This document shows, one piece after another, positions 1,972-18,459 of a DNA stretch of 24,204 bases; position 1 is the stretch's first letter; every line of letters starts with the position of its first letter. Origin of the DNA: a virus; the IMG/VR virus record IMGVR_UViG_3300042695_000196, positions 1-24,204 of that record. The stretch is one strand, 5' to 3'. The notes under the pieces were generated by a model that did not search any database, was not told the DNA's origin, and worked only from the letters and a program-made list of their open reading frames with translations. The translations under genes and the position numbers were made by a program.

Positions 1972-2514
1972 TTAACAATTAGTACAAGTTAATTTATTTA
2001 AAAGCTTAAGTGCATAATTGTACAAGCTCATTCCTTTCTGAGGCTCATGACAATATTCTACTTTTGCTTTTGCAGCTTGAAGATACATATTAATTAATCT
2101 CAAAGCTTCTAATTTCTTTTTGATTGCTGCTGGCGGATCACATGCTGCAGCATCTACATCACACAAAACTTTATTGTACTTTATTAAAGCTTGTGTAATT
2201 CTCATGTGGTTGTATTCTACATACACCTGATCATTAGGAGATACACTATACTTGATAATATATATCCCGTCCGGTATATCATAGTTTACTGTTCCACAAT
2301 CTACAGTTTGTAACTGAAGATCACATGCAGTTATTGTCTCTGCAAAGTTTTCAGTAGTATCTAGCTGTACTGAATATCCAAATCCAGGTACAGTTATATT
2401 TAATGTAGGACAAGTTACCGGAAGTAATGTTGTATAAACACTTGTATCAAATAATTTCATGATACATGAGTTCATTACTGTAGGTACTTCCAAGCTTAAT
2501 ACATGATTTGCCAT
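1972..2514 (-). CDS. Cys-rich structural protein of unknown function
   Basis: A 180-residue protein beginning MANHVLSLEVP. It has nine cysteines. The first 100 residues look beta-rich (LNITVPGFGYSVQLD, DGIYIIKYSVSPNDQVYVEY); the last 80 are helical with Ala/Lys/Leu (AAIKKKLEALRLINMYLQAA) and end in CTNC. That layout suits a neck, connector or tail component. It lies between the 526-residue structural gene and the zinc-ribbon gene, directly after a hairpin that ends about 13 bases before its ATG. No promoter can be seen in that space, so expression probably depends on read-through. I recognise no named family with certainty. Confidence 0.65.
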   Translation of the reverse strand: MANHVLSLEVPTVMNSCIMKLFDTSVYTTLLPVTCPTLNITVPGFGYSVQLDTTENFAETITACDLQLQTVDCGTVNYDIPDGIYIIKYSVSPNDQVYVEYNHMRITQALIKYNKVLCDVDAAACDPPAAIKKKLEALRLINMYLQAAKAKVEYCHEPQKGMSLYNYALKLLNKLTCTNC

Positions 2515-2584: not shown

Positions 2585-4165
2585 TTAATCACAGAACTGT
2601 GTTGTGTTAGGAGTGAAGTTTGTTGTTAAAACTGGGAAGTTATAAACTGGTTCACAAACTGGTTCAACACATCCTTCAACTTCAAGACCTGAACACTGAG
2701 AACAAGCATCCAACCAATCATTTACAAAGTCTTCAAATTGTACTATGATACCACAAGTAATAATTTCTAACAAGTATTGGTCATTATCAAATGTACTAGT
2801 TGGGTTATTGAAACGTGGTACATTATGTTGGATAAAGTATCTTGTGTACAATACATTACGGTTGATATAATCAAACACACTGTATCCTTGTGTAATCTCA
2901 CGGATACGGAAGTCTGAGTGGAAGAAGTTTTGTCTGTATTGCTCAGATAAAATAACATCTCTTGCAACTGACTCACCTAATCCCATTACTTGTCTTCCTT
3001 CACATTCTTTAACTACACATACTCCGTTGAACAAACATGGATCACCATTTAAGTCCATTTCAGATACATACAATCTAACTGGCTCTACTTCATAGAAGTC
3101 AGTAATTTGGAATGTACAGTTTTGGAATTTAGTATCTACATAAGCTCCGTTAAGAACTAAACCAGCACAACCATCAGGTGTGTGTCCTGGAGATACATAA
3201 TGATCCCAAGTATCAACACCATTAGCAGCTAAGAAAGCAGCACTTGTTCCTGGTGCATACCAAGGAGTACCTGTTTCATCAACTAAGATGATTTGCATGA
3301 ATGGAGAGATAACTGGATATCTTGTAATAGCTTCAGCCCATTGTTTGAAGATTAATGTAGAGTCAATTACTACTGGAGCAATTGCACCTTCTGGACAACA
3401 TCCACCATATGCAGAAGCAATGATGTAAGAGTTGTGGTTAAGTAATCTTAATGCAGGAGAACCTTTAACATCAACACGTAATGTATAAGTCTCACCACAG
3501 AAAAATTCTTTACAACAATTAGCACCAACACCAGCTGTTACAACAAATATAGGTTGTGTACCATCACCAACTTCAGGAATAAGTTCAGTTCCTGTTGTAG
3601 CTGTATCAGCTGTTGTCCAATCTGAACCACCATTTACAATTTCTACAAAAGTAACTTCACCACCTACTACAGTGATGTTAGCTACTAAACCAACTCCTGT
3701 TGAAGGACCAACTGCAACTAATGGAATATCTGTGTATACACCATCAACTAAGTTAGCACCTGGATCACCAGCACCAGCTGTAGATAATGATAATGCAACG
3801 CTATCAGTCCAAGCTGTGTTACCAACGTGTACTACTTCATTTTGTGGTAAACATGGATCTACACGGTAGAATTTGTTTACATACTTAGGATTGATTTCCT
3901 TAGATTTGTTAGATTCTTGGTATCCACCATGGAAAGGACCAATTTTATCATTCTGATAAATTGAACCTGCAGCAAGAATAAGATTACAACATCCTAGTCC
4001 ACTAGAATAAGTTGTTGGTAATACTTGCCAAGTTTTAGGATTAACAAATCCAAATTGACCACCTTGAAAAATATTTCCAGTAGTTCCTAACTGACCTTCT
4101 GCAAGATCAGTAAAACCATTTGTTCCCACAAAGGTTTTTCTAAAGGCATGATTAAAATAACTCAT
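2585..4165 (-). CDS. Conserved crAss-type structural protein (MSYFNHAF family) with inserted beta domain
   Basis: A 526-residue protein starting MSYFNHAFRKTFVGTNG, a start I associate from memory with a virion protein conserved in crAss-like phages. Nineteen cysteines are present, including CC pairs near 59, 217 and 256, and a Cys-rich C-terminus (ACSQC, ending QFCD). Residues about 118-214 look like an added Gly/Thr/Val-rich beta domain. This contains ITVVGGEVTFVEIVNGGSDW, resembling the repeated GGSGYTVGD-type modules found in many phage surface proteins. The leader CTAAAAACAAAAAACAATG is A-rich. A strong hairpin follows the stop, suggesting high or tuned expression. The exact role (capsid decoration, neck or tail) cannot be set from sequence; it is unlikely to be an enzyme. 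Confidence 0.75.
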   Translation of the reverse strand: MSYFNHAFRKTFVGTNGFTDLAEGQLGTTGNIFQGGQFGFVNPKTWQVLPTTYSSGLGCCNLILAAGSIYQNDKIGPFHGGYQESNKSKEINPKYVNKFYRVDPCLPQNEVVHVGNTAWTDSVALSLSTAGAGDPGANLVDGVYTDIPLVAVGPSTGVGLVANITVVGGEVTFVEIVNGGSDWTTADTATTGTELIPEVGDGTQPIFVVTAGVGANCCKEFFCGETYTLRVDVKGSPALRLLNHNSYIIASAYGGCCPEGAIAPVVIDSTLIFKQWAEAITRYPVISPFMQIILVDETGTPWYAPGTSAAFLAANGVDTWDHYVSPGHTPDGCAGLVLNGAYVDTKFQNCTFQITDFYEVEPVRLYVSEMDLNGDPCLFNGVCVVKECEGRQVMGLGESVARDVILSEQYRQNFFHSDFRIREITQGYSVFDYINRNVLYTRYFIQHNVPRFNNPTSTFDNDQYLLEIITCGIIVQFEDFVNDWLDACSQCSGLEVEGCVEPVCEPVYNFPVLTTNFTPNTTQFCD

Positions 4166-4231: not shown

Positions 4232-4744
4232 TTATTTTAAGAAAAGTAATTTATACTTAGTAGAATTAATAGAATCTTTAACTAAGTCTAGGTTATTTAC
4301 TATCTCTGAATAAGGTAACATCCCCTGAAGTTTGTTTATCATAGCATACAGATCTCTAAGATATGATACACCATCAGCTACAGTATCCAATGTTCTTGGT
4401 GCTACATCTTTTATTGTCAATAGTTTTTCAGAAACTCCTTGATAACCTTCCACAAGTGTATCAGCCTGTCCTGGTAAACCATCATAGAAATCTCCTATTG
4501 CTATGTGAGCAGCATAAGAACCTTCTCCTTTTACTTTTAAATGAAGCTTGTGAAAACTATTTCTAGCATTCATAAGTTCCATTGCACATGCAGCTACCAT
4601 ATTATCTAATGAGCTACCACCTACACCTGTATCCGAAGTTGGTTGTGGTTTAGCTGATTCTTCTTTAGGTTGTGTTACAGTTACTTCTGGTCTACTGATT
4701 GTTCTAGCAGGTTCAGGATTTCTTTTTAACATTCTTGTTGCCAT
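4232..4744 (-). CDS. Dps/ferritin-like protein
   Basis: A 170-residue protein. Residues 1-42 are a disordered Pro/Thr/Ser/Lys tail; from about 43 on it is helical. The stretch from H68 to E99 aligns without gaps to the ferroxidase region of Dps: H68, H80 (12 later), D95 (15 later) and E99 (4 later). These match the spacing of E. coli Dps H51, H63, D78 and E82. G73, A78, F86 and T96 are also shared. The Dps aspartate at H+4 is Gly here (G84), but D85 is adjacent. I recall a phage family of this kind as DUF5856, not checked. It sits between the neck-type and 526-residue structural genes in the late operon, so a virion role or a host stress / iron role are both possible. The leader ends CTAAAAACAATG. 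Confidence 0.7.
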   Translation of the reverse strand: MATRMLKRNPEPARTISRPEVTVTQPKEESAKPQPTSDTGVGGSSLDNMVAACAMELMNARNSFHKLHLKVKGEGSYAAHIAIGDFYDGLPGQADTLVEGYQGVSEKLLTIKDVAPRTLDTVADGVSYLRDLYAMINKLQGMLPYSEIVNNLDLVKDSINSTKYKLLFLK

Positions 4745-4749
4745 TGTTT

Positions 4750-5448
4750 TTAGTTGTTACGTTCTGCAGTTTCTGTACCTCTAGAGAATTGGTTTGTTGA
4801 CTCAATATCTCCAGCAAGTATACTCACTGCCTCATCTATTATTAATTCTATTATATCATCTTTAAATTCACACAGTACTTCAGCTGTAGAAGCTACATTA
4901 GTATATGGATCTACACATCCCTGGATTTGAATTTTAATAGGCTGTCTGTAATACACTAAGTCAGCTTTTTCTATGTCAAATGCATTGTTAGTATATACAT
5001 TTACTTTATTACCTTTTAGAGTAGCAAAAGTTTCTGCCCATTCAAAACTAGGTTTTTTAGCATCATCTCTAAGTAACTGATTTAAGTTACCTTCTTCAGC
5101 AAGATACACAGTCATCCTTCTTTTATCACAGCATTCTTTGTTAGCAAAAACATCTACTCTTTTCCACTGAAGATATTCTTGCGGAAGCACAGATTCATAA
5201 TATATTTCTTTATCTGTAAGAGTTAGATCATATGTAGATAATAGTACTTGCAAGTCATCCTTTCTTCTAGTAGATTGCTCATCACCTTCTTTAACTAAGT
5301 TTATACCATGAAGTTGTCTTCTAACCCATTCTACCTGAGCTTTATTAAAGCCTTCTACAATCTGCCAGCACTCAAGATTATCATAATCCTGACTGTCTAA
5401 CTTATTGAGACGTTGTTTAATCTTTATGGTAATAGTACTGTTAAGCAT
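4750..5448 (-). CDS. Neck / head-tail connector candidate
   Basis: A 232-residue protein. Residues 1-50 are helical (KIKQRLNKLDSQDYDNLECW, then FNKAQVEWVRRQL). The middle is mixed, with KRVDVFANKECCDKRRMTVY and LAEEGNLNQLLRDDAKKP, and the C-terminal third has beta segments (LVYYRQPIKIQIQGC) followed by an acidic helix. This helical then beta layout and the place between capsid and tail-type genes fit the ring or connector proteins below the portal of short-tailed phages. The C-terminus ends in a polar tail (ESTNQFSRGTETAERNN). It starts two bases after the stop of the 67-residue basic gene and is five bases from the Dps-like gene. The assignment is by position and general appearance, not by a diagnostic motif. 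Confidence 0.6.
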   Translation of the reverse strand: MLNSTITIKIKQRLNKLDSQDYDNLECWQIVEGFNKAQVEWVRRQLHGINLVKEGDEQSTRRKDDLQVLLSTYDLTLTDKEIYYESVLPQEYLQWKRVDVFANKECCDKRRMTVYLAEEGNLNQLLRDDAKKPSFEWAETFATLKGNKVNVYTNNAFDIEKADLVYYRQPIKIQIQGCVDPYTNVASTAEVLCEFKDDIIELIIDEAVSILAGDIESTNQFSRGTETAERNN

Positions 5449-5450
5449 TC

Positions 5451-5654
5451 TTATCTGTTTTTAGCCATTTTTTTTAAAGTTCTTGCAAGAGCTTTTCTTT
5501 TAGGAGTACAAGTAGGTTTTGACATGGGTGTGCAATAACCTTTGTGTTTAGGATTAATTGCATTCTGTATCCAGTTTTTGTCAGTAGATCCTCCCTTTTT
5601 ATACTCACGGTTTGTTTTAATGATTTTATCTAGTGAGTTTTTAACATCTCCCAT
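5451..5654 (-). CDS. Small basic KGG protein, last of the basic cluster
   Basis: A 67-residue basic protein with the shared motif YKKGGST (residues 18-24) and a conserved-looking core KNWIQNAINPKHKGYC, then TCTPKRKALARTLKKMAK. I recall this W-I-x2-AI-x-PKHKG / CTPKRKALA pattern from small proteins in unrelated phages of aquatic and gut bacteria, but have not checked it. It is tightly coupled to both neighbours (two-base gaps). It may be a nucleic-acid-binding virion cargo protein; this is inferred from charge and position only. Confidence 0.65.
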   Translation of the reverse strand: MGDVKNSLDKIIKTNREYKKGGSTDKNWIQNAINPKHKGYCTPMSKPTCTPKRKALARTLKKMAKNR

Positions 5655-5656
5655 GA

Positions 5657-6337
5657 CTATTTCTTTTTAACTGCTCCCCCTTTTTTCTGGAATCCCATTT
5701 TGTTTCTTACAGCAGTAGGTAATTTTGATAAACCAACTTTACCTGCCGGTACTGGTTTTAATGAACCACCTGCTTTAAACTTTCTTTCAGCAACACAATT
5801 ACCAGAAGCATCTTTAACCATACCTCCACGGCATCCTGGTTTTACTGCTCTACTAGTTGTAGAACCACCTTTTTTAAATCCTAATGAATCTGTTCTACCA
5901 GCATTAGGAATACCATAGATTCCCATTTTAGTATTGTCTCCACCTTTTTGAGCTGGAGCATATCCACCAGTGTTACCACCAGCAGCATATTTCTTAACTG
6001 ATCCGCCTTTTCTTTTTTCTTCAGTAGCATTAGAAGCTAGTTGTTTTCTTGCTTCTTTAGTTGTCATAGCTGGATTAGATTTTTTAAGTTCTTTAACAGC
6101 CTTTCTTTTTTTGCTAAAATCAGAAATTATTTTACCAGCTACACCGGCAACACCACTAATTGATGTAGCAAGACCAGCTACAGCTGATGTACAATCAATA
6201 CACTTTTTACCATCCCAACATTTATTAACACCAGGACAAGGGTTACTAGAAGACCCACCTTTAGCCATTTTCTTAACAGCAGCAACTTTGCCACCTTCTT
6301 TCATTTTGCCACCACAACCGTATTTACAAGTTTTCAT
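5657..6337 (-). CDS. Basic multi-KGG protein with glycine-rich hydrophobic segment
   Basis: A 226-residue, very Lys/Gly-rich protein. It starts MKTCKYGCGGKMKEGG and has eight xGG motifs (KEGG, AKGG, RKGG, AAGG, QKGG, KKGG, KAGG, KKGG). A Cys cluster lies at C34, C40, C46 and C49, and a second pair at C169 and C181 (GCRGGM...GNC). Residues about 51-73 (AVAGLATSISGVAGVAGKII) form a Gly/Ala-rich hydrophobic segment that could insert into a membrane, followed by a strongly basic helix. It ends with LSKLPTAVRNKMGF and KKGGAVKKK. It could be an internal virion protein that coats DNA or is ejected into the host envelope. That is a hypothesis; no family function is known to me. Confidence 0.65.
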   Translation of the reverse strand: MKTCKYGCGGKMKEGGKVAAVKKMAKGGSSSNPCPGVNKCWDGKKCIDCTSAVAGLATSISGVAGVAGKIISDFSKKRKAVKELKKSNPAMTTKEARKQLASNATEEKRKGGSVKKYAAGGNTGGYAPAQKGGDNTKMGIYGIPNAGRTDSLGFKKGGSTTSRAVKPGCRGGMVKDASGNCVAERKFKAGGSLKPVPAGKVGLSKLPTAVRNKMGFQKKGGAVKKK

Positions 6338-6349
6338 TTTATATATAAT

Positions 6350-6700
6350 TTAACAATTCCATTTTCTTAGTGAAAGAGCCTTTCTTGTAGGTCTTCCTTT
6401 TTCATCCTTCATAGGACCCTTTACTCCAGACATTCTGCTACAAAAGCTCCGTCTTCTCTTAGCATCTTTACTATCTGGATCTAGTTTAGAAGGCTTAGTA
6501 GTTACAGCCATCTTAAGTTTACTTCCTGGATTCTCTCTTCTATAAGAAGCAACACCTTTTGCATTAAGACCTCCTGTCTTATTTTTTCCTTCTGACCTTG
6601 TCCATGCGGGAGTAGAACCACCAGATTTCATCTTAGGTTTTTTACCAGCTTTCTTCATTGAAATAGCTATTGCTGCTTGCTGTGCTCTACTTCCTGCCAT
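6350..6700 (-). CDS. Small basic protein with conserved FCxRMSGxKGPMKD motif
   Basis: A 116-residue basic protein. After a Lys-rich start containing MKSGGSTPAWTRSEG, it carries GGLNAKGVASYRRENPGSKL, the core RRRSFCSRMSGVKGPMKD, and the C-terminus RPTRKALSLRKWNC. I recall this arrangement as a widespread phage family (DUF6321), found far beyond crAss-like phages, and not verified. No enzyme motif is visible. The start overlaps the preceding 88-residue gene by 14 bases, which suggests translational coupling. As one of a run of basic genes between capsid and neck genes it is probably a virion or DNA-associated protein. Confidence 0.7.
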   Translation of the reverse strand: MAGSRAQQAAIAISMKKAGKKPKMKSGGSTPAWTRSEGKNKTGGLNAKGVASYRRENPGSKLKMAVTTKPSKLDPDSKDAKRRRSFCSRMSGVKGPMKDEKGRPTRKALSLRKWNC

Positions 6701-6953
6701 TTTTCTTACCTTTATATTTATAGTCCGGGTTATCTTTATGCCATTTCTTTGTAGCTGCTACTCCTTGCTTAATTGTTTTTGCTCTTCCTTTTGCAGTTAA
6801 GTCTATAGTATCCCACTGTCCTTTATCTTTGGTAGGATGGTTAACCATTATGTTACCAACCTTTCCTTCACCTTTTTTTGTAGTCTTTTTATATACTACA
6901 TGTTTTTCACCACCGGCAGTTACTGTTACTTTCTTAGTCTTTGCCTGTGCCAT
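6687..6953 (-). CDS. Small basic protein (VNHPTKDKG motif)
   Basis: An 88-residue Lys-rich protein. The N-terminal half is beta-like (KKVTVTAGGEKHVVYKKTT). The middle has GNIMVNHPTKDKGQWDTIDL and the end a basic helix (KQGVAATKKWHKDNP) with a KYKGKKNGRK tail. The VNHPTKDKG...DLTAKGR..KQGVAATKKWHKDNP pattern looks like a real conserved domain that I have seen in phage proteins of unknown function. It is part of the tight basic-gene run, with a two-base gap upstream and a 14-base overlap downstream. Confidence 0.65.
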   Translation of the reverse strand: MAQAKTKKVTVTAGGEKHVVYKKTTKKGEGKVGNIMVNHPTKDKGQWDTIDLTAKGRAKTIKQGVAATKKWHKDNPDYKYKGKKNGRK

Positions 6954-6955
6954 GA

Positions 6956-7201
6956 TTAAATCTTTTTACCAGCAGCAATGCTGTTAAATTCTTTTGCTTT
7001 TTCAGCTGCCATCTTTTTTACATCTGCCATTAACTTAGCATTCTTTTGAATCTCAGCAGCTCTTTGTAAACAAGACATAGCAGATTCAATTTCCCATTTT
7101 CTCATATCAGCCTTATTACTTCCACCTAAAATGGAAATACCAACTGAAGAAGTTGATTTCTTAGCTGGTGCTTTTTTAGTTGTTGTTTTTTTAATTGCCA
7201 T
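6956..7201 (-). CDS. Small helical Lys/Ala-rich protein
   Basis: An 81-residue protein. Residues 1-17 are Lys/Thr/Ala-rich, like a histone tail (MAIKKTTTKKAPAKK). A short SVGISILGGSN stretch follows, then a long amphipathic helix from about 33 to the end (RKWEIESAMSCLQRAAEIQK, continuing with KKMAAEKAKEF). The helix could dimerise as a coiled coil. It sits in the middle of the basic cluster, two bases before the next gene. A DNA-binding or packing role fits the tail and helix layout but is not shown. Confidence 0.6.
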   Translation of the reverse strand: MAIKKTTTKKAPAKKSTSSVGISILGGSNKADMRKWEIESAMSCLQRAAEIQKNAKLMADVKKMAAEKAKEFNSIAAGKKI

Positions 7202-7206
7202 AACTA

Positions 7207-7470
7207 TTAATGTTTTTTAGATGTTCTTAATCCTTTAGAAGAAGCTTGTCTTCTCAATGAACTTCCTTTTATTACTGATCCACCTTTTTTCTTTACTATA
7301 GGACCTGGTTCTGCAGGTTTATAAGGTGTAGGTATGAACATTTCATTGTTAGGATCATTTGCAGGATTATTTTCTGCAGATCTAAAAGCTGCTTGAGCCG
7401 CTTGCTTTTGTGTCATAGGACCAATCTCTACACCATTTTCACCCTTAATTAATTTTTTTCTTGATTTCAT
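7207..7470 (-). CDS. Small basic KGG protein
   Basis: An 87-residue protein starting MKSRKKLIKGENGVEIG. The start resembles the 104-residue protein at 22101-22415 (KKLVKAQNGINV), which suggests a shared short N-terminal element. The middle is a Pro/Asn-rich low-complexity stretch (NNPANDPNNEMFIPTPYKPA). Near the C-terminus is VKKKGGSVIKG with a basic tail. No enzyme or membrane feature is seen. Its neighbours are five and two bases away. Confidence 0.6.
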   Translation of the reverse strand: MKSRKKLIKGENGVEIGPMTQKQAAQAAFRSAENNPANDPNNEMFIPTPYKPAEPGPIVKKKGGSVIKGSSLRRQASSKGLRTSKKH

Positions 7471-7472
7471 AA

Positions 7473-7811
7473 CTATGCTTTTTTAACTCTTCTTCCCATA
7501 CCTACTCTAGACTTCTCAGCTTTTTTAGCAGCTAGTTTAGAAGGAGTTAGTTCATACTTTGTTTTAGGAGTATCCTTTGATACTCTTTTTGTAGGCCGGC
7601 AGTATTCATTTTTACCACCGGCACCACAAGGTTTTCCTGATTTAGTATCTTGCCATTTCTCTGCTTGCCATCTTTTAAGCTCTGATCCTTCTTTAGTTTT
7701 TCTCACTGTGCCTGAACCTTTACGGCATTTGGCAATAGCTTGAGAAGCCCTTGCTGAAGGGAACACAGCATACCGTGCTTTTACACTATGATAGCAAGAA
7801 TCCTTTGGCAT
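7473..7811 (-). CDS. Small basic protein fusing two recurrent phage motifs
   Basis: A 112-residue basic protein with two recognisable blocks. Residues about 6-31 read CYHSVKARYAVFPSARASQA and IAKCRK, a pattern common in marine phage proteins. Residues about 44-88 read LKRWQAEKWQDTKSGKPCG, then EYCRPTKRVSKDTPKT and YELTPSK, resembling what I recall as DUF5872, also present in large eukaryotic DNA viruses. Cysteines at the block ends could bind zinc. Family recall is unverified. It lies second in the basic cluster after the 293-residue gene. No catalytic motif is seen. Confidence 0.7.
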   Translation of the reverse strand: MPKDSCYHSVKARYAVFPSARASQAIAKCRKGSGTVRKTKEGSELKRWQAEKWQDTKSGKPCGAGGKNEYCRPTKRVSKDTPKTKYELTPSKLAAKKAEKSRVGMGRRVKKA

Positions 7812-7813
7812 GA

Positions 7814-8695
7814 CTATTTTCTCCCTGGTGTAGCTTTTTTAGGAGCAGTAGATGTACCACCTGAACGTCCTCTTGCAACTTTAGAAGCAGTAGCTTTTGC
7901 ATTAACTCCAGACTTAACACCTTTAGAACCAGCAGTTGCTGTTGCTTTTAAATTAGCATTAGCATTAACCATTCCACCAGTTTTATATTTAGTAGCACCA
8001 CCTGTTTGTTGTTTCTTGTGTCTCCTGTCTTCCATTTTTTTCATTGCTTTCCGCTGTGCTAACTTAGCTCCTTCAGTATGAATTATTAAATCATTTAGTT
8101 TAATTTTTTTTGATTTAGGAGGTTCTGTTGCTGTTGTATTTGTAGAGCCTCCATCTTCATACTTGGTAGCACCGCCTTTTTTCTGCTCTTTAAGTTTTTT
8201 GTAAGCAGCATAACCTCCAAGACCACCAGCAATTGCTCCTAGTGTACCTAGGATGCTTCCTTTAGTTTCTTTAGATTTACCTTTACTTTTAAATGTTTTT
8301 TTACATCTAGGAGGTTTATTTGGTCCAGCACATGACGCTGCTTCTGTCATGCCTCCTACTTCATACTTTTTAGCACCACCTTTTTTTTGTTTATTTAACT
8401 GTTGTCTTTGTTGTTTTTTAAGATCTTGAAAAGAAGCTTTTTTTGCATTAATTGCATTTAATTCTTGTGCTTTTCTAAGAGCATCTGCAGGACTTATTTG
8501 TTCTACTCTTTGATTTTCTCTCATTGCATTTGTAGGACCAATCATTGGTTTATTCATTGGTCCTACCATAGGAGATTGAGTTTTAGGATTTTCTGGTAAT
8601 GCCATAGGAGCATGCCAACCACCACCATCACCTTTCTTTTTTAAATATCCACCTTTTTTCATTACTGGTTTTTTAACCATTTTTTTAGTTGCCAT
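7814..8695 (-). CDS. Large basic KGG-repeat protein with glycine-zipper segment
   Basis: A 293-residue protein that opens the basic cluster. Three spaced copies of a motif GGAxKYxxGG lie at about 106-115 (KKGGAKKYEVGGM), 174-183 (KKGGATKYEDGGS) and 232-241 (TGGATKYKTGGM). Residues about 147-165 (SILGTLGAIAGGLGGYAAYK) form a Gly-rich hydrophobic segment flanked by lysines, able to sit in a membrane. CAGPNKPPRCKK (122-133) resembles CTGGPGDPPGCRGSKRK in the small protein at 21845-22099, again just after a YEVGG motif. The C-terminus is Lys/Ala/Gly low complexity, like a DNA-binding tail. It may be an ejected or internal head protein. The function is inferred from composition. Confidence 0.65.
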   Translation of the reverse strand: MATKKMVKKPVMKKGGYLKKKGDGGGWHAPMALPENPKTQSPMVGPMNKPMIGPTNAMRENQRVEQISPADALRKAQELNAINAKKASFQDLKKQQRQQLNKQKKGGAKKYEVGGMTEAASCAGPNKPPRCKKTFKSKGKSKETKGSILGTLGAIAGGLGGYAAYKKLKEQKKGGATKYEDGGSTNTTATEPPKSKKIKLNDLIIHTEGAKLAQRKAMKKMEDRRHKKQQTGGATKYKTGGMVNANANLKATATAGSKGVKSGVNAKATASKVARGRSGGTSTAPKKATPGRK

Positions 8696-8707: not shown

Positions 8708-9724
8708 TTAAGTGTTCCAATACTTCTCACAGGCTAGGTTAAGATCTTTCAAAAGGTCCTCATTTAAAGGGTTTTTCAAGAACTCAACAACATCAGAAAC
8801 ATTTCTACCAAGCAAGCTATTAGACTTAGCATGGTATATATATCCATCTGCCTTATTTATAATATACTTAAAAAAAACGGAATCTCTAACAATTGATTTA
8901 ATTTTTAGTGTTTCCATATCTAAAGTTGCAGTCTCCATGAAGGATTTTGCAGCTCTTTCTTTGTTGGTTTCTCCACCCTCACCATTAATATGTCTGTCCA
9001 TATTCTCATAGATAATATCCAATGGAGTTGATCTCTTATATTGTGTACTATTGATATCTACAACTTTTGCAATGTAGAATAACTTAGTACTGTTTTTGTC
9101 AAATAATTTTTGTAATTCTGACAATGCTTTGTTACGGAGTTTTTTGTACTCTGTTCTATACATAACAGTTTCCTCTTCTTTATCTAAGTAGAACTTAGGT
9201 GGAACTGCTTTTGATCTAGCATCATCAAAACTTTTTGCTACAATAGAAAAACCACCTGCTTCAATAGCATGTAATTTAATTCTATCATAAGGATCCTTTG
9301 GATCTAGGAATAATGGATCATTACTACAAGATATAGATATCTTATTCCAAAATTCTGCATTATCTGGTTTAAGTAACTTTACTTTATTCCAGAACTGAGG
9401 ATCATCAATCTCAATAACATTTGCAGCTAGTTCTTTTTCTAGCTCAATTATTGCAGATCTTATTTCTCTTACTCTGGCTTCTCTATCTTCTGGGTTAAGT
9501 AACTTGATCTCTGGAGCAAATTCATTTAGACCAGTGATATATCTTACTACACCATTGTTTTCTAAACAAGCTAATTGCTCATTGTGAGTTACTCCATCAA
9601 AGAGAGAGATACCATATTCTTCTAATCCCATGTTAGAAGCTGAATTGTCAAAGAACGGGCGGACAGCAATTGTTGTTTGTTTAACAGTTCCTTTTCCTGT
9701 TTCCACCATTGTGAAATTTTCCAT
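8708..9724 (-). CDS. Unrecognised protein next to the major capsid gene
   Basis: A 338-residue soluble protein. It starts MENFTMVETGKGTVKQTTIA, then RPFFDNSASNMGLEEYGISL. A helical part around residues 78-105 (EDREARVREIRSAIIELEKE) precedes two short related stretches, DDPQFWNKVKLLKPD and DNAEFWNKISIS. The C-terminal half is mixed alpha/beta and ends CEKYWNT. No cofactor or catalytic motif is seen. It stands between the capsid-gene terminator hairpin and the basic cluster and has the tandem CCAACAAA leader. In crAss-like phages a protein of about this size follows the capsid gene and is thought to be structural. I cannot be more specific. Confidence 0.6.
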   Translation of the reverse strand: MENFTMVETGKGTVKQTTIAVRPFFDNSASNMGLEEYGISLFDGVTHNEQLACLENNGVVRYITGLNEFAPEIKLLNPEDREARVREIRSAIIELEKELAANVIEIDDPQFWNKVKLLKPDNAEFWNKISISCSNDPLFLDPKDPYDRIKLHAIEAGGFSIVAKSFDDARSKAVPPKFYLDKEEETVMYRTEYKKLRNKALSELQKLFDKNSTKLFYIAKVVDINSTQYKRSTPLDIIYENMDRHINGEGGETNKERAAKSFMETATLDMETLKIKSIVRDSVFFKYIINKADGYIYHAKSNSLLGRNVSDVVEFLKNPLNEDLLKDLNLACEKYWNT

Positions 9725-9806: not shown

Positions 9807-11423
9807 TTAGAATGATCCACCAGTGATTGGGTTTCTCATAACAATCTTAAGGACTTTAGTTGGATCCTTAACCCAGATAGCTGGCATTGTTTGAGACATC
9901 ATCACACGGTATCCGTTGAATTGACCAGAAGACTGGAATCCTTGAGAACGGCCCATATAATCCATAGTACCATTTTGATACCACCACTTCAATTGATTAT
10001 CCCAAGATAACTTCAACAAGAAGATGTTGTCATTAGTGTTATCAGTGATATCAAAGATAATGAATGAGTAAGAAGATAATGGGAAACCATCAATGATTGG
10101 GTTCTCAATATCATTTGTATGAACATTGTCAAATGCTGGGTTAAGTACAAACTTAACATTTGCCAAGAATGGAATTACATATGAAGTATAAGCAAATCCA
10201 AAGTTCAAGTCCATACCTTTACCAGTGATTGCACCAATATCAGCAGCCTGAATAAGTAAACCTGAAGATACAGCCTCACGCTTGATAGCTTCATTTACCA
10301 TTCTCATACCACCCATACCAGTTTGAACTACTAAAGATCTTTTTGGATCTGGACCTTGGAACTCAACTTTACCATTGAAGAAGTTGTAGATCTCTCCACG
10401 GAATAAATCTAATGTAAAGTTGTTTTTGTTGTATACTCTTTTGAATGAGTTATCCAACTGCTTCCAAAGACCCACAGATAATCTTAGATCATCTGGACCA
10501 TCTTGACGTACTCTACCTCCTTGTCCCCACATTAAGTAAGTCTCAATGTCAGAAGCAATTTTAGTTAAGTGAGCAGCTTCCATAGTAGTTAAGAAAGTAC
10601 GTGATAAGTCTCCGTTATCAAATGCTTTTTTAACTTTATCTTTACCCATTACTTTAACCATGTCTTCCAAAGAAGTGATTGATGGATCAACAGATTTGTC
10701 AAATGTTCTCCAGATCTCAGTTACAGGAACTGTACCATCTGCATTCATACCACCTTTGATCATCAAGTCAGCACGGCTAGAGATAGAATAATGTACGTGA
10801 GCTTCAGCACCACCAACAAAGTTATAGAATTCACGGAATCCTGTTCTTGTTGTGATATCTGAGAATCTTTCACCATATTCTCCACGGGCAGAACCTTTAC
10901 GGAAAACTTTAGTACCATTAGCCAAGTACTTGTTATCCAAGTATTTGAAGTTATCATTGTTTACCAACTGCACTGTATAGATATATGCATCTCCTAATGG
11001 AAGAATATCTTCAGCAGTAATGTACATCTCAACTCCGTTATATTTGTCATAAGTGATGATATCACCATGTCCAAACTCACGTCTGCTAAGTTTGATACGG
11101 AAGGTTGAGCCTTCAATACCTTTAAAGTTATTGTCTGGTTCAATATCCTCAATGATGTAAGGTAAGTCCACAGACACTGGAGTCTGCCACTTATACTCAC
11201 CACGAGCATTATCAACCATAATTACATTTTTACCACCAAAGCTAGACATTTGGTAAAGAGGCATTTCTACCTTTTGAGCCATTGCCCAAAGGTCCACTGG
11301 ACCTAAATCCATTGGTTCTGCATCCTTCAACATGTTAACCAAGTGGTAAGAGTCTACATGTGACGTAGCATTGTACGCGGTATCTCGTAGAAATATACCA
11401 TTGTTTAAAACTGGAGTTGCCAT
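9807..11423 (-). CDS. Major capsid protein
   Basis: A 538-residue protein starting MATPVLNNGIFLRDTAYNAT. Size, order (after portal and a scaffold-like gene) and overall look match the major capsid protein of crAss-like phages, expected to have an HK97 fold and build the icosahedral head. Supporting features are the absence of any cysteine, many aromatic/Gly beta segments, and the long helix-forming middle (residues about 260-310, KVKKAFDNGDLSRTFLTTME). The C-terminus reads MPAIWVKDPTKVLKIVMRNP. The leader CAAATATAAAATGG has no Shine-Dalgarno box. The gene has its own strong terminator directly downstream, typical of a highly expressed gene. HK97 fold is knowledge of the family, not read from sequence. 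Confidence 0.88.
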   Translation of the reverse strand: MATPVLNNGIFLRDTAYNATSHVDSYHLVNMLKDAEPMDLGPVDLWAMAQKVEMPLYQMSSFGGKNVIMVDNARGEYKWQTPVSVDLPYIIEDIEPDNNFKGIEGSTFRIKLSRREFGHGDIITYDKYNGVEMYITAEDILPLGDAYIYTVQLVNNDNFKYLDNKYLANGTKVFRKGSARGEYGERFSDITTRTGFREFYNFVGGAEAHVHYSISSRADLMIKGGMNADGTVPVTEIWRTFDKSVDPSITSLEDMVKVMGKDKVKKAFDNGDLSRTFLTTMEAAHLTKIASDIETYLMWGQGGRVRQDGPDDLRLSVGLWKQLDNSFKRVYNKNNFTLDLFRGEIYNFFNGKVEFQGPDPKRSLVVQTGMGGMRMVNEAIKREAVSSGLLIQAADIGAITGKGMDLNFGFAYTSYVIPFLANVKFVLNPAFDNVHTNDIENPIIDGFPLSSYSFIIFDITDNTNDNIFLLKLSWDNQLKWWYQNGTMDYMGRSQGFQSSGQFNGYRVMMSQTMPAIWVKDPTKVLKIVMRNPITGGSF

Positions 11424-12803: not shown

Positions 12804-15554
12804 CTACTTTTTATTTTTCACTGAACCACCCTTATCATATTTATTTTTATTTACTCTAGCCACCTGAAGTTGCTTATCAGCTATTTCTCTTTGTGCTTGT
12901 ATCTTCTCTCTTTCAATAGCATTCTTGTCTCTATCTAACATGGTTCTAGTAGCTTCTTTATCTCTTTGCAATTGATTTTGGGCCATGTACTGTTCACTTT
13001 GTCTAATGTCTTTCATAGCATCTTGATAGTCAGAGATTTCATTTTTGTTGACATCAGCCATAGATCCATAACCAGCTGCTCTAATTTCAGCAATAAGAAC
13101 TTCAGTTTGTCTATCTTTCTCTTTCTCAGCAGCAGTAGCATCAATCTTCATCTTCTCAATCTCTTGTTGTTTCTGAAGTTGTTGTTCTTGCATTTGCTGT
13201 TGTTGTTGCATTTCTTCTTGTTTTTGTTGCTGTTGTTTTTGCTCAGAAGATTTAAGAGCACTGTTAAGTTCAGCAATAGAATCAGATTGAACAATTTTAC
13301 CAAGATCATAGATACTAGCTCCTGTAGTATTATTCTGCATAGCCATTTGTTTTAACTGTTCTAATACAGCTCTATGATTTGCAGTTGTGCTACAGAAGAT
13401 ATTAAGATCTCTCATTAATAACTCAGTACCATTTATCTCAAAGTTTACTTTCTCATCAGCTGTGGTTATATAACTTAACCTGCTTGATGGTTTTGTAGAA
13501 TGATAGAACTGAGCTAGATCAGTACGCATCTGATGAACTCTTGGCATTAAGTAATCACAGTGTTGTACAAAGAACATTTCTGTTTGAGCATATGAAGAAG
13601 CTGCTGCTTGTTCTACTCCGGTAGCAGTCATTTGTGCAATCTGCTGTCCCATTCTTTGTGGAGTTACACCTATTACTTCATAAGCTTGTTGCTTAAAGTG
13701 ATTAGCTAACTGTATCCTTGACATTAATCTCTCTGTCTGAGATAGATCTAGTTTTTGGAAGTGCTGGAAGTTTAATGCATTCTCAGTATTTGTAATAGAA
13801 GTATCCAAAGGTAACATCTGGAAATTCTTCATAGCTACATAAGCCTTAGCATAATTTCCTTTTCCCCAATCTTCTCCTAAGGAGTGTCTTGGTAAAGTAT
13901 TCTGGTCAAGCATGATTATAGTACCAAGCTCATCTACTAAGATATCCGCTATCTGATTATTTACTATGTTATAACCAATCTGGTATGGCTTCATTAAGTC
14001 AATAAGTGCAGTAGACTTGGTATTCCTGTCTGAGAATACAGATCCTTCTACTGGAAGTTTACATCCATATAGTGAATTGTCACCTTTAAACTGAAACCTT
14101 AATGGACCTATCTTAGGTTTATCAACACCAATATACATAGGAGTAAATCCACCAGGATTATTCATACCCCAGAATGAAGGAATGTTTGGTCCTATTTTAA
14201 TACCACCCCAAACCTCATTAATCCATATCCAGTCTATATGCTCACCATATACTAGATTGTCTTTGCTTTTGTTTTTAAATAACCTAGTATCATATATAGG
14301 TTTTGTAGATATCTTATAGTCTTCATCTACTATATCCATTTCTACTTGGCCATTATCATCTATACTAATAAGGTGTCCAATCTTTCTTTGAGACTTCCAG
14401 TATATTGTAGATACTCTTAATAGATATGCAGTACCTTGATCATAATAATCTTCTCCTTCAGAAAGTATCTGTGTAATAATATCTCCACCCTCTAATACAG
14501 CACCACCCATTGCAGTAGTATATTGTCTGTATGCAAGAGATGGCATGTTTGTATTCCAGTCATGTGATTTAGTACCATCATAAAAGCTACCGTCATTTTG
14601 AAGACCACCAATAGTATAACCTGCAGATCTGATAGGATAAACAGCTTCAAGTGCTCTTAACTGTTCTTCATCCATTAGATAACCATATCTATCAATAACA
14701 TCTGCCGGAGTCATCATATCAGTTTTACCAGCCCAGTTAGCTTGTGATATATATCTTGCATCTGGAGACTTATGATAGAATGAGATAGCTGGATTCCAAA
14801 GCTCTACTTCATAATCATCCTCCATCATACGGAAATGCCAGAACTCTCTATCTGTAATTAACATGTCACGGAAGCCTCTTTCTTCAAGCTCATCCATTCT
14901 AAATCTCTCTACATCTACTTTATGCTGATGTGTAGCCCACTCTTCTACCATTGATCTGTAGTCTTTTCTAAAGTACATTTCAATTTCAGGAAGAGATTTA
15001 AGTTTTTCTGGAGATGTTTCTTGTTGGAATTCTTCTGAATCAGGTTGAAGACCTTTATCCATAAGTGCAGAAGATACTTTAAGTCTTGCATCTTCTAATA
15101 GGACATCTTCCACCATTTGTCTTTTTTGCTCCATCATCTCATTGTATGAGAACTCATCTACTGCTCTATATGTAAGCTTAGTAGATCTCTTTGCAAATTC
15201 AGCTACTAGAACATTAATAACATTTGGGATAATTGGGTAAAACTTAAGTTCAAGTGCTGATACATCTTCTTTAGTAAGTGTTTCAACTATATCTCTATAG
15301 TCATTATTCTCTTCTACTATATAATCAGACTTGTCTATTATACCTTTGGCCAGTTTATAATTTTTCATTAGTCTTCTGGCATTTCTCCGGATTTGTTTTA
15401 ATCCTTGCCACTCTAACCAATCTAAATTCCAAGCTGCCCACTTTTCATCTTTTTCTTTTTTAGGAATAAACTGTAACGGTTGGGTAATACTACCCATTCT
15501 GTTATTTTCTGTTGTTGCTCCTCCTTTTGCCTGTAAAGCATTTATTATCTTCAT
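12804..15554 (-). CDS. Portal protein with long Gln-rich coiled-coil C-terminus
   Basis: A 916-residue protein directly after the large terminase and before the scaffold and capsid genes, which identifies it as the portal, the dodecameric DNA channel of the head. The N-terminal part (WAAWNLDWLEWQGLKQIRRN, residues about 39-60) and the core (TKLTYRAVDEFSYNEMMEQK; later TATGVEQAAASSYAQTEMFF) fit crAss-like portals. The last ~150 residues are almost purely helical and Gln/Glu/Lys-rich, with runs of Q (encoded near 13140-13250), and would form a long barrel or crown inside the head. The final residues NKYDKGGSVKNKK repeat the KYxxGGS motif of the basic cluster. It ends with TAG. Confidence 0.85.
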   Translation of the reverse strand: MKIINALQAKGGATTENNRMGSITQPLQFIPKKEKDEKWAAWNLDWLEWQGLKQIRRNARRLMKNYKLAKGIIDKSDYIVEENNDYRDIVETLTKEDVSALELKFYPIIPNVINVLVAEFAKRSTKLTYRAVDEFSYNEMMEQKRQMVEDVLLEDARLKVSSALMDKGLQPDSEEFQQETSPEKLKSLPEIEMYFRKDYRSMVEEWATHQHKVDVERFRMDELEERGFRDMLITDREFWHFRMMEDDYEVELWNPAISFYHKSPDARYISQANWAGKTDMMTPADVIDRYGYLMDEEQLRALEAVYPIRSAGYTIGGLQNDGSFYDGTKSHDWNTNMPSLAYRQYTTAMGGAVLEGGDIITQILSEGEDYYDQGTAYLLRVSTIYWKSQRKIGHLISIDDNGQVEMDIVDEDYKISTKPIYDTRLFKNKSKDNLVYGEHIDWIWINEVWGGIKIGPNIPSFWGMNNPGGFTPMYIGVDKPKIGPLRFQFKGDNSLYGCKLPVEGSVFSDRNTKSTALIDLMKPYQIGYNIVNNQIADILVDELGTIIMLDQNTLPRHSLGEDWGKGNYAKAYVAMKNFQMLPLDTSITNTENALNFQHFQKLDLSQTERLMSRIQLANHFKQQAYEVIGVTPQRMGQQIAQMTATGVEQAAASSYAQTEMFFVQHCDYLMPRVHQMRTDLAQFYHSTKPSSRLSYITTADEKVNFEINGTELLMRDLNIFCSTTANHRAVLEQLKQMAMQNNTTGASIYDLGKIVQSDSIAELNSALKSSEQKQQQQKQEEMQQQQQMQEQQLQKQQEIEKMKIDATAAEKEKDRQTEVLIAEIRAAGYGSMADVNKNEISDYQDAMKDIRQSEQYMAQNQLQRDKEATRTMLDRDKNAIEREKIQAQREIADKQLQVARVNKNKYDKGGSVKNKK

Positions 15555-15559
15555 AGTAC

Positions 15560-17764
15560 CTATTTAATATTTTTAAAAGGGGATCTTGTGATTCCTTTGC
15601 TTAATGAATTACCAGAACCTCCCATATGTCTAAATGGACTTCTATTTAATTTACTAAAATTTTCAGACTTTTGCAAGTTTTTAGCCACATCATCCATGAT
15701 TGTTCTTTTTGGATAACCTGTATTTGAGTGTTGTATTCTCATAAAAGCAACAAGAGCAGCAAAGGCAACTAGTCTATCTACATTGACTCCATCAGCATAT
15801 TCTCTCATTTCTTTCATCAACATTGGATCCGGAATTCTTTCTATACCATATTTAGTTCTTACTATTGTACCATCAGGTTTTGTTTCCACATCTATTTCTT
15901 CTTTACAATATTCTATAGCATAACTAAGAAGGTGTGCTTTAAAAAGAGTACCTGTATTTTTCCAACCATACTCCTGGAATACATTAGCATTAGATCCAAG
16001 ATCTTTTAGAAACATTATCTGACTTTTAGGTACTAGATATTTCTGTTTTTTTCTAGATATCATATACTGGATAAATAGTGAAATATTGTTTTCAATTACT
16101 GTCCAGGCATTATACCACTCAATAATTAGTTCTAGTCTTTGATGTGTTTTATTTATATCATCAAATCTTCCACACCATGCTGCTACTATTTTACCCTGTT
16201 CTATATAATTTTCTGTTTCTACACCAGTTACTTTAGTTACTTCAATTGGAGCTTTCATTACATATATTGAACATAGTGATTCTGATGTATTAGTTTTTCC
16301 CTCTGATACCGGATCTATAGATGCATAGTACATTCTAAATGTTGGATCTTTAACCGGCCTTTCCCATACCACTAATACTCCTGTTTTATCTTCTGTCTTT
16401 TTGGATATAGGAAACTCTGATATAGGTCTTTTATTTGTAGGCATTACAGCAGGCTTACCATTCTCATCTGTGCTTATATCTAAGAATTCATAACCATATG
16501 TCTTATCTTCTATTCTTCTTTCTTGTGCTGCAAGCAAGTGAGTAGGAAATACAGATACTGTTCTATGATCAAATGCTTCTTTAATATTTCTTGGATGCTG
16601 AGATATCCTTAACTGGTAGTCTTCCGGGTTTAGTTCTTTCTTCCATTTATCAAACTGCTCATCTAATGCTTTTAATGCAGCTTCTACAAGTGAATTACCA
16701 TATTCATCAATATGAGGAGGCATAGACCATTGTTCAGGAATAAATAAACCTGACATACCTTGAGTGCCTTTATCATCTATAAGATCTGTTTCTACTGCAT
16801 ATACATCTTTAGATAATGGATTAAGGATCATATCTCTTAGTGGATTACACTGAGATAAATCACCCACAGATCCTGCAGCTATAAACATTCCTGTAGTAAT
16901 AAGTCCAGATCTCATGGCTGGGCGCATGTACTCATATGTCTGATCCATCTTAGGAGCAATTCCAGCCTCCTCATGGAAGAAGTATTTTACCGGACCTCCT
17001 ACACCATTTGTTGGATCTTTCTCAAATGACATACCTTGTATAGTACCTTTAAGACCAACTTCTGTTTTTCTATCTCCTTTTCTTACCTCAATCTTCTGTT
17101 GCCACATCATTACCTTATCCGGTGACATAGGTCTGTACCATGCTGTATGTTCATTTAAGAATGCAGCATATTCCTGTAAAAACTTCCAGGATCCTTTCTC
17201 ATTAATATAATCTTTAAGACTAGCTCCTATCTTAAGTGTTACCCCTGCTTCAAACCATTGCTGATTTATAAGTTTACCCATATGATAGTAAGAAGAAGCT
17301 ATCTGTCTTTTCTTTAATATTGCAGAGTGTTTATAGTTAAGTTCAGCTAATAGTTCATATAATGCCATATGATACTGAGCATCCCGTATCTTAGCAAACC
17401 CAAATTGTTGCAACTCTTTATCAAAAATTGGTAAAAAGTTTAACCACATGTAGTATTCTCTGGCAATGAACCATGCATTATTACCATCTTTAACTATTAC
17501 ACCTTTACGGCATTTAGCTTTTTGGTCATCCCAATATGTTATAAAGTCTTTTGATCTGTAGGGTGCCGGAGTGTATATTCCATCTTTTTTAAATTTTGTT
17601 GACTCAGATATGAAAACTTTATTTGTAGTTTCATTGAAGTTGTACTTACCTGGTTCTTTAAATATGCTAAAGATAAAGTTGCTGAACTCCTCTCTGGATT
17701 CAAAACTTGTAATTGTCCAGTCTCCATTGTCATAAGTTGGTATGTCTTGATAAATTTCACTCAT
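15560..17764 (-). CDS. terL: Terminase large subunit
   Basis: The ATP-driven DNA-packaging motor and headful nuclease. I start it at the ATG at 17762-17764 (MSEIYQDIPTYD), giving 734 residues. An in-frame ATG nine codons earlier lies inside the endonuclease gene. The ATPase part has a Walker-A-like segment KKRQIASSY (151-159), a Walker-B-like YFFHEEAG (261-268) and a coupling segment AAGSVGD (297-302). The nuclease part has ASIDP (D484), VIENN (E558) and NVDRLVA (D663), the expected acidic triad of an RNase H-like terminase nuclease. The Walker motifs are divergent, as is usual in crAss-like terminases. The C-terminal tail holds RSPF twice (708-711, 727-730) around a Gly/Ser linker. Confidence 0.88.
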   Translation of the reverse strand: MSEIYQDIPTYDNGDWTITSFESREEFSNFIFSIFKEPGKYNFNETTNKVFISESTKFKKDGIYTPAPYRSKDFITYWDDQKAKCRKGVIVKDGNNAWFIAREYYMWLNFLPIFDKELQQFGFAKIRDAQYHMALYELLAELNYKHSAILKKRQIASSYYHMGKLINQQWFEAGVTLKIGASLKDYINEKGSWKFLQEYAAFLNEHTAWYRPMSPDKVMMWQQKIEVRKGDRKTEVGLKGTIQGMSFEKDPTNGVGGPVKYFFHEEAGIAPKMDQTYEYMRPAMRSGLITTGMFIAAGSVGDLSQCNPLRDMILNPLSKDVYAVETDLIDDKGTQGMSGLFIPEQWSMPPHIDEYGNSLVEAALKALDEQFDKWKKELNPEDYQLRISQHPRNIKEAFDHRTVSVFPTHLLAAQERRIEDKTYGYEFLDISTDENGKPAVMPTNKRPISEFPISKKTEDKTGVLVVWERPVKDPTFRMYYASIDPVSEGKTNTSESLCSIYVMKAPIEVTKVTGVETENYIEQGKIVAAWCGRFDDINKTHQRLELIIEWYNAWTVIENNISLFIQYMISRKKQKYLVPKSQIMFLKDLGSNANVFQEYGWKNTGTLFKAHLLSYAIEYCKEEIDVETKPDGTIVRTKYGIERIPDPMLMKEMREYADGVNVDRLVAFAALVAFMRIQHSNTGYPKRTIMDDVAKNLQKSENFSKLNRSPFRHMGGSGNSLSKGITRSPFKNIK

Positions 17765-17766
17765 AA

Positions 17767-18459
17767 TTAAACTCTTTGATAGCAAAACCATTTAGGAGCT
17801 TTTGAATTTCCATTTAAATAAGATCTAATAGTACTAAATGGTATATTCAAATATTCAGATAACTCTTTACCAGAACCAAATAATTTTTGTGTTTGAGTAC
17901 ATATAATTTTTTTAGCATTATAGTGATTACCACCTGATACACTCAATCTTATTTTAACCCTAGTTTCTTCTGAAACTGCTTTACCTAATTGAGAGTTTCT
18001 CATTTTTAATTTAGATTCTTTTGTGTGTGTCTTACCTAAAAAAGTTTGTCTTCCTTTTGCTTTTTTGCTAATTTTTAATTTACTTTCATTTGAATGTGTT
18101 TTGCCAAAAAAATGGTTATTAGAACCTTTAGTATTTTTTATATATTCTGTTCTAATTTTGCAATATGTTTTTGCTGAAGGCTTGAATCTTAAATCTTTTT
18201 TTACATTACACATATTCCACAATGCTTTATGCATTGCTGGTGAATTGGGATATATTGCAACTAATAACAAATGTGCAATGTAATGTTCTTTTGGTGTTAA
18301 TAATACTATATTAGGGTGGACAGTATTTCTACCATCACCCTTTCCTCCAAATGATTTTGGCTTTATATGATGAGCTTCATAATAAACATCATCAGATCTT
18401 TTTCTACTTTCTAATTTTGCTTTAATTATAAGCTTGTTATATATTTTTATATAGTTCAT
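17767..18459 (-). CDS. Free-standing HNH homing endonuclease with NUMOD domains
   Basis: A 230-residue protein. Residues 28-63 carry an HNH nuclease: YEAHHIKPKSFGG (H30, H31), then HPNIVLLTPKEHYIAHLLL (N50, H59, H63). Residues about 112-172 hold repeated NUMOD3-type DNA-binding units (NHFFGKTHSNESKLKIS, TFLGKTHTKESKLKM, LGKAVSEETRVKI). A NUMOD1-like region near 184-215 contains SGKELSEYLNIPFSTIRSYL. These enzymes make a site-specific cut and spread their own gene. It sits between the 171-residue gene and terL with a two-base gap to terL. Its stretch looks even more AT-rich than the neighbours, in keeping with recent gain. terL is intact, so this is not an intron here. Confidence 0.9.
   Translation of the reverse strand: MNYIKIYNKLIIKAKLESRKRSDDVYYEAHHIKPKSFGGKGDGRNTVHPNIVLLTPKEHYIAHLLLVAIYPNSPAMHKALWNMCNVKKDLRFKPSAKTYCKIRTEYIKNTKGSNNHFFGKTHSNESKLKISKKAKGRQTFLGKTHTKESKLKMRNSQLGKAVSEETRVKIRLSVSGGNHYNAKKIICTQTQKLFGSGKELSEYLNIPFSTIRSYLNGNSKAPKWFCYQRV

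Follow-up and report, generated by a model that had tools for sequence, protein, structure and literature searches.

A Dps-related DUF5856 protein and a ferritin occupy the same slot among the virion genes of freshwater crAss-like phages

Results

A DUF5856 gene within the virion gene block

The window, by which we mean the whole 24,204-nucleotide stretch of viral DNA analysed, comes from a freshwater crAss-like phage and carries, among its particle-building genes, a gene for a 170-residue protein (Table 1). The open reading frame, its coordinates and the residue spacing given in an earlier note on this DNA were all correct on re-checking. The gene upstream probably encodes a crAss-type tail ring protein, an assignment that rests on a small search in which its profile matched crAss001 gp34 (ring R4/R5) at E 0.0012 and gp35 (R3) at E 0.024; a PDB-wide profile search and an AlphaFold2 model (pLDDT 52) of this gene product gave no confirmation of ring identity. 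Profiles of the two genes that follow downstream matched no solved structure, and the 180-aa product fell into no family.

Table 1. Coordinates, strand and supporting evidence for features of the window
Feature	Coordinates	Strand	Evidence
180-aa gene closing the syntenic block	1972..2514	-	conserved synteny
Downstream neighbour, 526-aa gene, presumed structural	2585..4165	-	conserved synteny; weak PHROG matches to tail and virion proteins
DUF5856 / Dps-like gene	4232..4744	-	PF19174 and phrog_858 matches; predicted four-helix bundle
D153, helix D	4286..4288	-	invariant in 50/50
Candidate metal-site core H65, H68, H80, D95, E99	4448..4552	-	end of helix A and helix B; invariant in 50/50; gapless to Dps
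E99 codon	4448..4450		
D95 codon	4460..4462		
D85 codon	4490..4492		
G84 codon	4493..4495		
H80 codon	4505..4507		
H68 codon	4541..4543		
H65 codon	4550..4552		
Disordered N-terminal tail, residues 1-43	4616..4744	-	low pLDDT; dN/dS higher than in domain
LKR motif, tail residues 6-8	4721..4729	-	common to ferritins in the same slot of sister phages
Upstream neighbour, probable crAss-type tail ring protein	4750..5448	-	phrog_29507 virion structural protein, E 3.4e-12
Counterpart of crAss001 gp33	8708..9724	-	profile match, E 1.3e-6
Major capsid protein	9807..11423	-	Pfam Crass_capsid, E 1.3e-30
Portal protein	12804..15554	-	phrog_6547, E 2.6e-94
Terminase large subunit	15560..17791	-	phrog_6681, E 1.4e-53

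Among 80 relatives recruited by DUF5856, every common gene pattern keeps the order portal, gene at 11449, capsid, gp33-like, ring-like, DUF5856, 526-aa gene and 180-aa gene. When loci were recruited by the capsid protein instead, DUF5856 occupied the slot, in fixed order, in 41 of the 42 spanning loci. Synteny thus fixes the location inside the virion gene block that the earlier note had proposed. The structural block of crAss001 was searched for a DUF5856 homologue and none was found. Two further features of the region are small Lys/Gly-rich proteins with KKGG repeats encoded between the gp33-like and ring-like genes (5451-8695), which crAss001 lacks there, and a homing-endonuclease-like gene (17767-18459; NUMOD3, E 1.4e-12) directly upstream of the terminase gene.

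The protein belongs to a phage family related to Dps

The window protein matches Pfam PF19174 (DUF5856) over model positions 6-94 of 94 (E 3.4e-13; 50.9 bits, above the gathering cut-off of 34.6 bits) as well as phrog_858 (E 7e-18). The Pfam Ferritin model (PF00210) gave no match to the window protein and weakly matches sister DUF5856 copies (E 1.7e-4 and 2.7e-4, 17 bits); an NCBIfam search returned no match. Deposited phage genomes with a family member number more than 1,400, many of them T4-like, and a search of genome contigs found no bacterial copies. The gene product is best explained as a mini-ferritin of DUF5856 that is specific to phages. Officially, DUF5856 is a family of unknown function, a literature search found no paper that names it, and the PHROG label of phrog_858, 'starvation-inducible transcriptional regulator', looks wrong. 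Purifying selection on the domain is strong, with a dN/dS of 0.11.

A single-sequence search of the PDB with phmmer was not significant, the best match being the Dps-type MrgA (E 1). With a family profile built from 16 sequences, Dps chains were matched at E 2e-7, in a list consisting almost only of Dps, and profile-profile alignments with Listeria and E. coli Dps have no gaps over the site. AlphaFold2, given 41 homologues, predicts helices at residues 45-70, 76-105, 122-142 and 146-167 with pLDDT above 90; the monomer model has no helix at residues 106-121, the region of the Dps BC helix. Foldseek places Dps at the top with probability 1.00, its E values being not below 0.001, while VIA gives M. 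smegmatis Dps2 a Z of 16.3 (2.2 A over 126 residues) and a top 50 of Dps and other ferritin-superfamily proteins. The mini-ferritin-like fold and Dps homology suggested in the earlier note are therefore supported by the family profile, the alignments, AlphaFold2, Foldseek and VIA alike, and the predicted four-helix bundle is a confident one. By sequence comparison, the protein descends from bacterial Dps, proteins that oxidise iron and protect DNA.

Conservation and geometry of the candidate metal site

The same family occurs in crAss-like phages, podoviruses (T7-like and P22-like), T4-like myoviruses, Ackermannviridae and jumbo phages, and conservation was assessed in 50 representatives covering these groups. 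Ten positions are invariant in all 50 (H65, H68, S76, H80, A82, D95, E99, G103, D153 and L166), which argues that the ligand match is not due to chance. Six of them are His, Asp or Glu (H65, H68, H80, D95, E99 and D153), and the only three His of the window protein are all among these. The candidate core corresponds exactly to residues 65-99. The 12/15/4 Dps spacing of H68, H80, D95 and E99 noted previously is correct, the gapless alignment across it was reproduced with both Listeria and E. coli Dps, and rather than varying freely in homologues these four residues are 100% conserved (n=50). In the Listeria alignment, H28 of Dps pairs with H65.

In the canonical Dps centre, the third ligand of the His-side subunit is an Asp at H+4 (PMC6675082). 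The window protein has Gly in its place with an Asp adjoining, as had been noted, here confirmed as G84 and D85. Position 84 is G in 34 representatives, N in 11, D in 2, E in 2 and A in 1; since Gly or Asn occurs in 45/50, loss of the Asp characterises the family as a whole. The Trp that adjoins the H+4 position in Dps is also missing in nearly all members, which have Leu or Phe (1 Trp in 50). H80 is separated from D95 and E99 by 15-19 residues, or about 22-28 A, on one helix, so that a common site needs two subunits, as in Dps; we infer that this geometry fits only a Dps-type inter-subunit site. The invariant D153 is perhaps the counterpart of the Dps pore aspartate; the profile alignments with Dps end before helix D and so do not reach it.

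Ferritin replaces DUF5856 in the same slot

At the 42nd capsid-recruited locus (L258), the DUF5856 slot is taken by a ferritin of 204 aa, encoded at L258:16043-16657, which matches PF00210 at E 1.6e-24 (86.9 bits; cut-off 24.5). A search with this ferritin recovered 57 viral loci, most with ferritin in the same slot; the slot ferritins of sister crAss-like phages, most of them LKR-tagged, are those of L258, L333-L353, L356-L359, L361-L371, L373 and L380. In three loci (L346, L347 and L352), ferritin and then DUF5856 stand in tandem, and DUF5856 is tail-less there. We also counted the 152 loci that cover the stretch from capsid through ring to downstream gene, which were recruited in part through the slot genes: 116 have DUF5856 in the slot, 33 ferritin and 3 both, and in none is it empty. 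Capsid recruitment, with its 41 + 1 of 42, gives the figure free of this bias. Of 21 records, all but one of them contigs of 98-123 kb, 13 carry DUF5856 alone and 7 ferritin alone, and a single one has the two in tandem. The capsid-protein tree requires at least 9 changes of slot state, of which 4-5 are forced by well-supported branches. The capsid gene may have recombined, yet this would equally be exchange at the slot.

Every FtnA-type ligand position is kept in the phage ferritins (40/40), namely E26, E58, E59, H62, E103, E135, Q136, E138 and E139 in the numbering of V. cholerae 3qz3. Among 50,697 annotated phage records, relatives of the slot ferritin were found in only 4 short ones. The position flanked by the tail-ring-like gene and the structural gene that follows it seems to be reserved for an iron-handling cage, and the swap of DUF5856 and ferritin within it amounts to a natural complementation experiment that points to iron handling.

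Other phage ferritins were seen outside this arrangement. Distant ones, 38-46% identical and without the tag (L372, L374-L378 and L381-L389), lie directly upstream of genes of about 580-1950 aa that have no informative PHROG match, and in two crAss-like loci (L354 and L360) a related ferritin lies upstream of the terminase gene (phrog_6681), outside the slot.

A short N-terminal motif follows the slot

The tail that precedes the domain had been described as disordered and rich in Pro and Lys. Its disorder (pLDDT 51-53) and Pro content (15%) were borne out, the Lys content was not: Lys accounts for 3 residues of the tail and Arg for 4, set against 5 acidic ones, for a net charge of about +2. 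Its dN/dS of 0.25 indicates purifying selection weaker than in the domain (0.11) but present. Many DUF5856 members, such as proteins of 117-120 aa, lack the tail, which is specific to the phage group of the window. A Lys-rich DNA-binding tail is not supported, and the DNA-binding role once suggested for the tail is weakened by the low net charge, by the tail-less branches and by its behaviour as a slot-specific tag.

Within this phage group, LKR occurs in the first 14 aa of 78/80 distinct DUF5856 proteins and 18/24 slot ferritins, compared with 6/1575 background ORFs, and in a 107-kb relative the slot gene is the only one of 115 genes with an N-terminal LKR. In the tandem loci, the motif is found in 0/2 distinct DUF5856 proteins and the ferritin keeps it. 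The tail thus goes with the slot and not with the fold. The simplest reading of these sequences is that the LKR tail serves as a docking or loading tag; alternatively, recombination may take place at a fixed point at the 5' end.

A different N-terminus is seen in T4-like DUF5856 proteins (L090, L091, L204 and L209-L220), which start MKFSDF, MKTKFEDF or MQTFNEITE. These starts resemble the sequence that targets T4 internal proteins to the capsid and are close to MKTYQEFMAEA of an annotated internal protein of Pet-CM3-4. This motif is rare (4/257 and 4/276 genes). The idea of a T4 capsid-targeting sequence was kept as a lead only, as most of these proteins have no cleavage Glu and the Ackermannviridae virion members do not have the motif.

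Homologues in purified virions

Two proteins that we identified as DUF5856 have been detected in particles of Ackermannviridae. ORF78 of LIMEstone1 was found in virions by mass spectrometry (13.15 kDa, 28.21% coverage, 3 peptides; PMC3296691), and its database record carries the note 'confirmed structural protein'. For gp217 of Sajous1, 10 spectra were obtained from CsCl-purified particles; its authors called it a ferritin (Phyre2 confidence 96.7%) and cautioned that cell debris may be present in the particle preparation (PMC10892097). This virion evidence, with its low peptide counts, concerns Ackermannviridae homologues and not crAss-like phages, and by analogy with these other phages we infer that the protein may also be located in the virion in the crAss-like group. 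For the phage of the window, the case for iron handling is firmer than that for a place in the virion. Separately, BFVD matches A0A6J7WIS1, A0A6J7WPK9 and A0A6J7XDU5 are annotated prohead proteases with a stretch that matches the Dps-like fold, which may connect Dps domains with head assembly by a separate line of evidence.

Discussion

From sequence, the slot most likely encodes a tagged iron-oxidising or iron-sequestering cage that is made with the virion and probably carried in it. The subunits would dimerise, probably going on to a 12-mer cage, such that H65, H68 and H80 of one meet D95 and E99 of its partner as in Dps, and this inter-subunit site would bind Fe(II) and oxidise it with peroxide or oxygen. 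The LKR tail may attach the cage that fills the slot, whichever it is, to a component of the virion or prohead. Made late, together with head and tail proteins, the product would travel in or on the particle, like the homologues detected in other phages, and keep iron and peroxide off packaged or newly injected DNA. We regard this proposal as a whole, from dimeric Dps-type iron site and LKR docking to a late virion-borne product that guards phage DNA, as reasonably probable. More tentative is the generalisation that freshwater crAss-like phages use an N-terminal LKR tag to load either of two iron-oxidising cages with mutually unmatched profiles, Dps-like or ferritin, so that every virion takes its own iron and peroxide defence to the host, in a manner comparable to encapsulin loading; we consider this plausible and put it below even chances.

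The protein may instead not be part of the virion and act within the cell as a late scavenger of iron and peroxide that protects phage DNA during replication, or the dying host; its position in the structural block would then set only late expression. The T4-like gene, which adjoins rI outside the structural block, fits such a role, and Dps and catalase genes of gut phages were interpreted likewise (PMC8008677). Homologues turned up in the purified particles of two phages, which speaks against it, as do two podovirus lineages in which the DUF5856 gene comes directly after the portal gene, and a fixed slot whose tag is common to two protein families; we see it as unlikely, though a real contender. 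Loss of catalysis, an option raised in the earlier note, would leave residues that bind a structural metal (e.g. Zn) in a head-tail assembly factor or minor structural protein. This agrees with the family-wide absence of the H+4 Asp, with the homologues in virions and with head and tail genes as neighbours, but an assembly surface alone hardly explains replacement by ferritins with the full FtnA-type ligand set. Such replacement in the same slot argues for an iron function, and we judge lost catalysis to be distinctly improbable.

A 'Ferrojan horse', in which iron borne by the particle exploits host iron-uptake receptors for entry, was proposed by the authors of Sajous1, whose gp217 is a DUF5856 protein; their tonB and feoB mutants gave no support, infection being undiminished on them (PMC10892097), and nothing places the window protein on the tail tip, so that this explanation appears very improbable here. 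That the ligand spacing reflects chance or convergence unrelated to Dps could be read from the phmmer result and from the miss by Pfam Ferritin, but the family profile with Dps first, the 50/50 invariance, the fold match and the direct, weak Pfam Ferritin matches of sister copies reduce its probability to almost nothing.

The sequence evidence makes DUF5856, a family without assigned function, a relative of Dps. Should the virion carry the tagged cage, particles of crAss-like phages would contain an antioxidant or an iron store, and the tag could be put to use for loading proteins into them.

Comparison with known systems

Already on record are DUF5856, phage proteins resembling Dps and a 'ferritin' of virions. 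In the searchable literature, we found no description of DUF5856/ferritin exchange in one virion-block slot with a shared tag, and no earlier description of DUF5856 in the freshwater crAss-like group. Gut 'Gratiaviridae' carry Dps and Mn-catalase genes, that is, phage-borne enzymes of the ferritin superfamily proposed to act against oxidative stress; these are different phages, and the accessible part of their description mentions no fixed virion-block slot, tag or ferritin exchange (PMC8008677).

Among Dps proteins, H31, H43, D58 and E62 of Listeria Dps equal H68, H80, D95 and E99 of the window protein without gaps, both are four-helix bundles, and the H28/H65 pair extends the likeness to the HxxH that is found in MrgA too. 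Compared with Dps of the MrgA, HP-NAP or Listeria type, the H+4 Asp is absent, as is nearly always its adjoining Trp, and the monomer model shows no BC helix. The bacterial non-haem ferritin of FtnA type has the same slot and tag in sister phages and keeps all catalytic-site positions; it and DUF5856 are different families of one superfamily, and their profiles do not recognise each other. LIMEstone1 ORF78 and Sajous1 gp217 are, like the window protein, DUF5856 and occur in purified particles, whereas the Ackermannviridae virion form is 117 aa long, tail-less and encoded among structural genes near a primase gene rather than beside tail-ring or portal genes. Finally, the window protein has the same invariant residues as PF19174 and phrog_858, and the crAss-like members differ from the rest of PF19174 in their 43-aa tagged tail and their fixed slot in the virion block.
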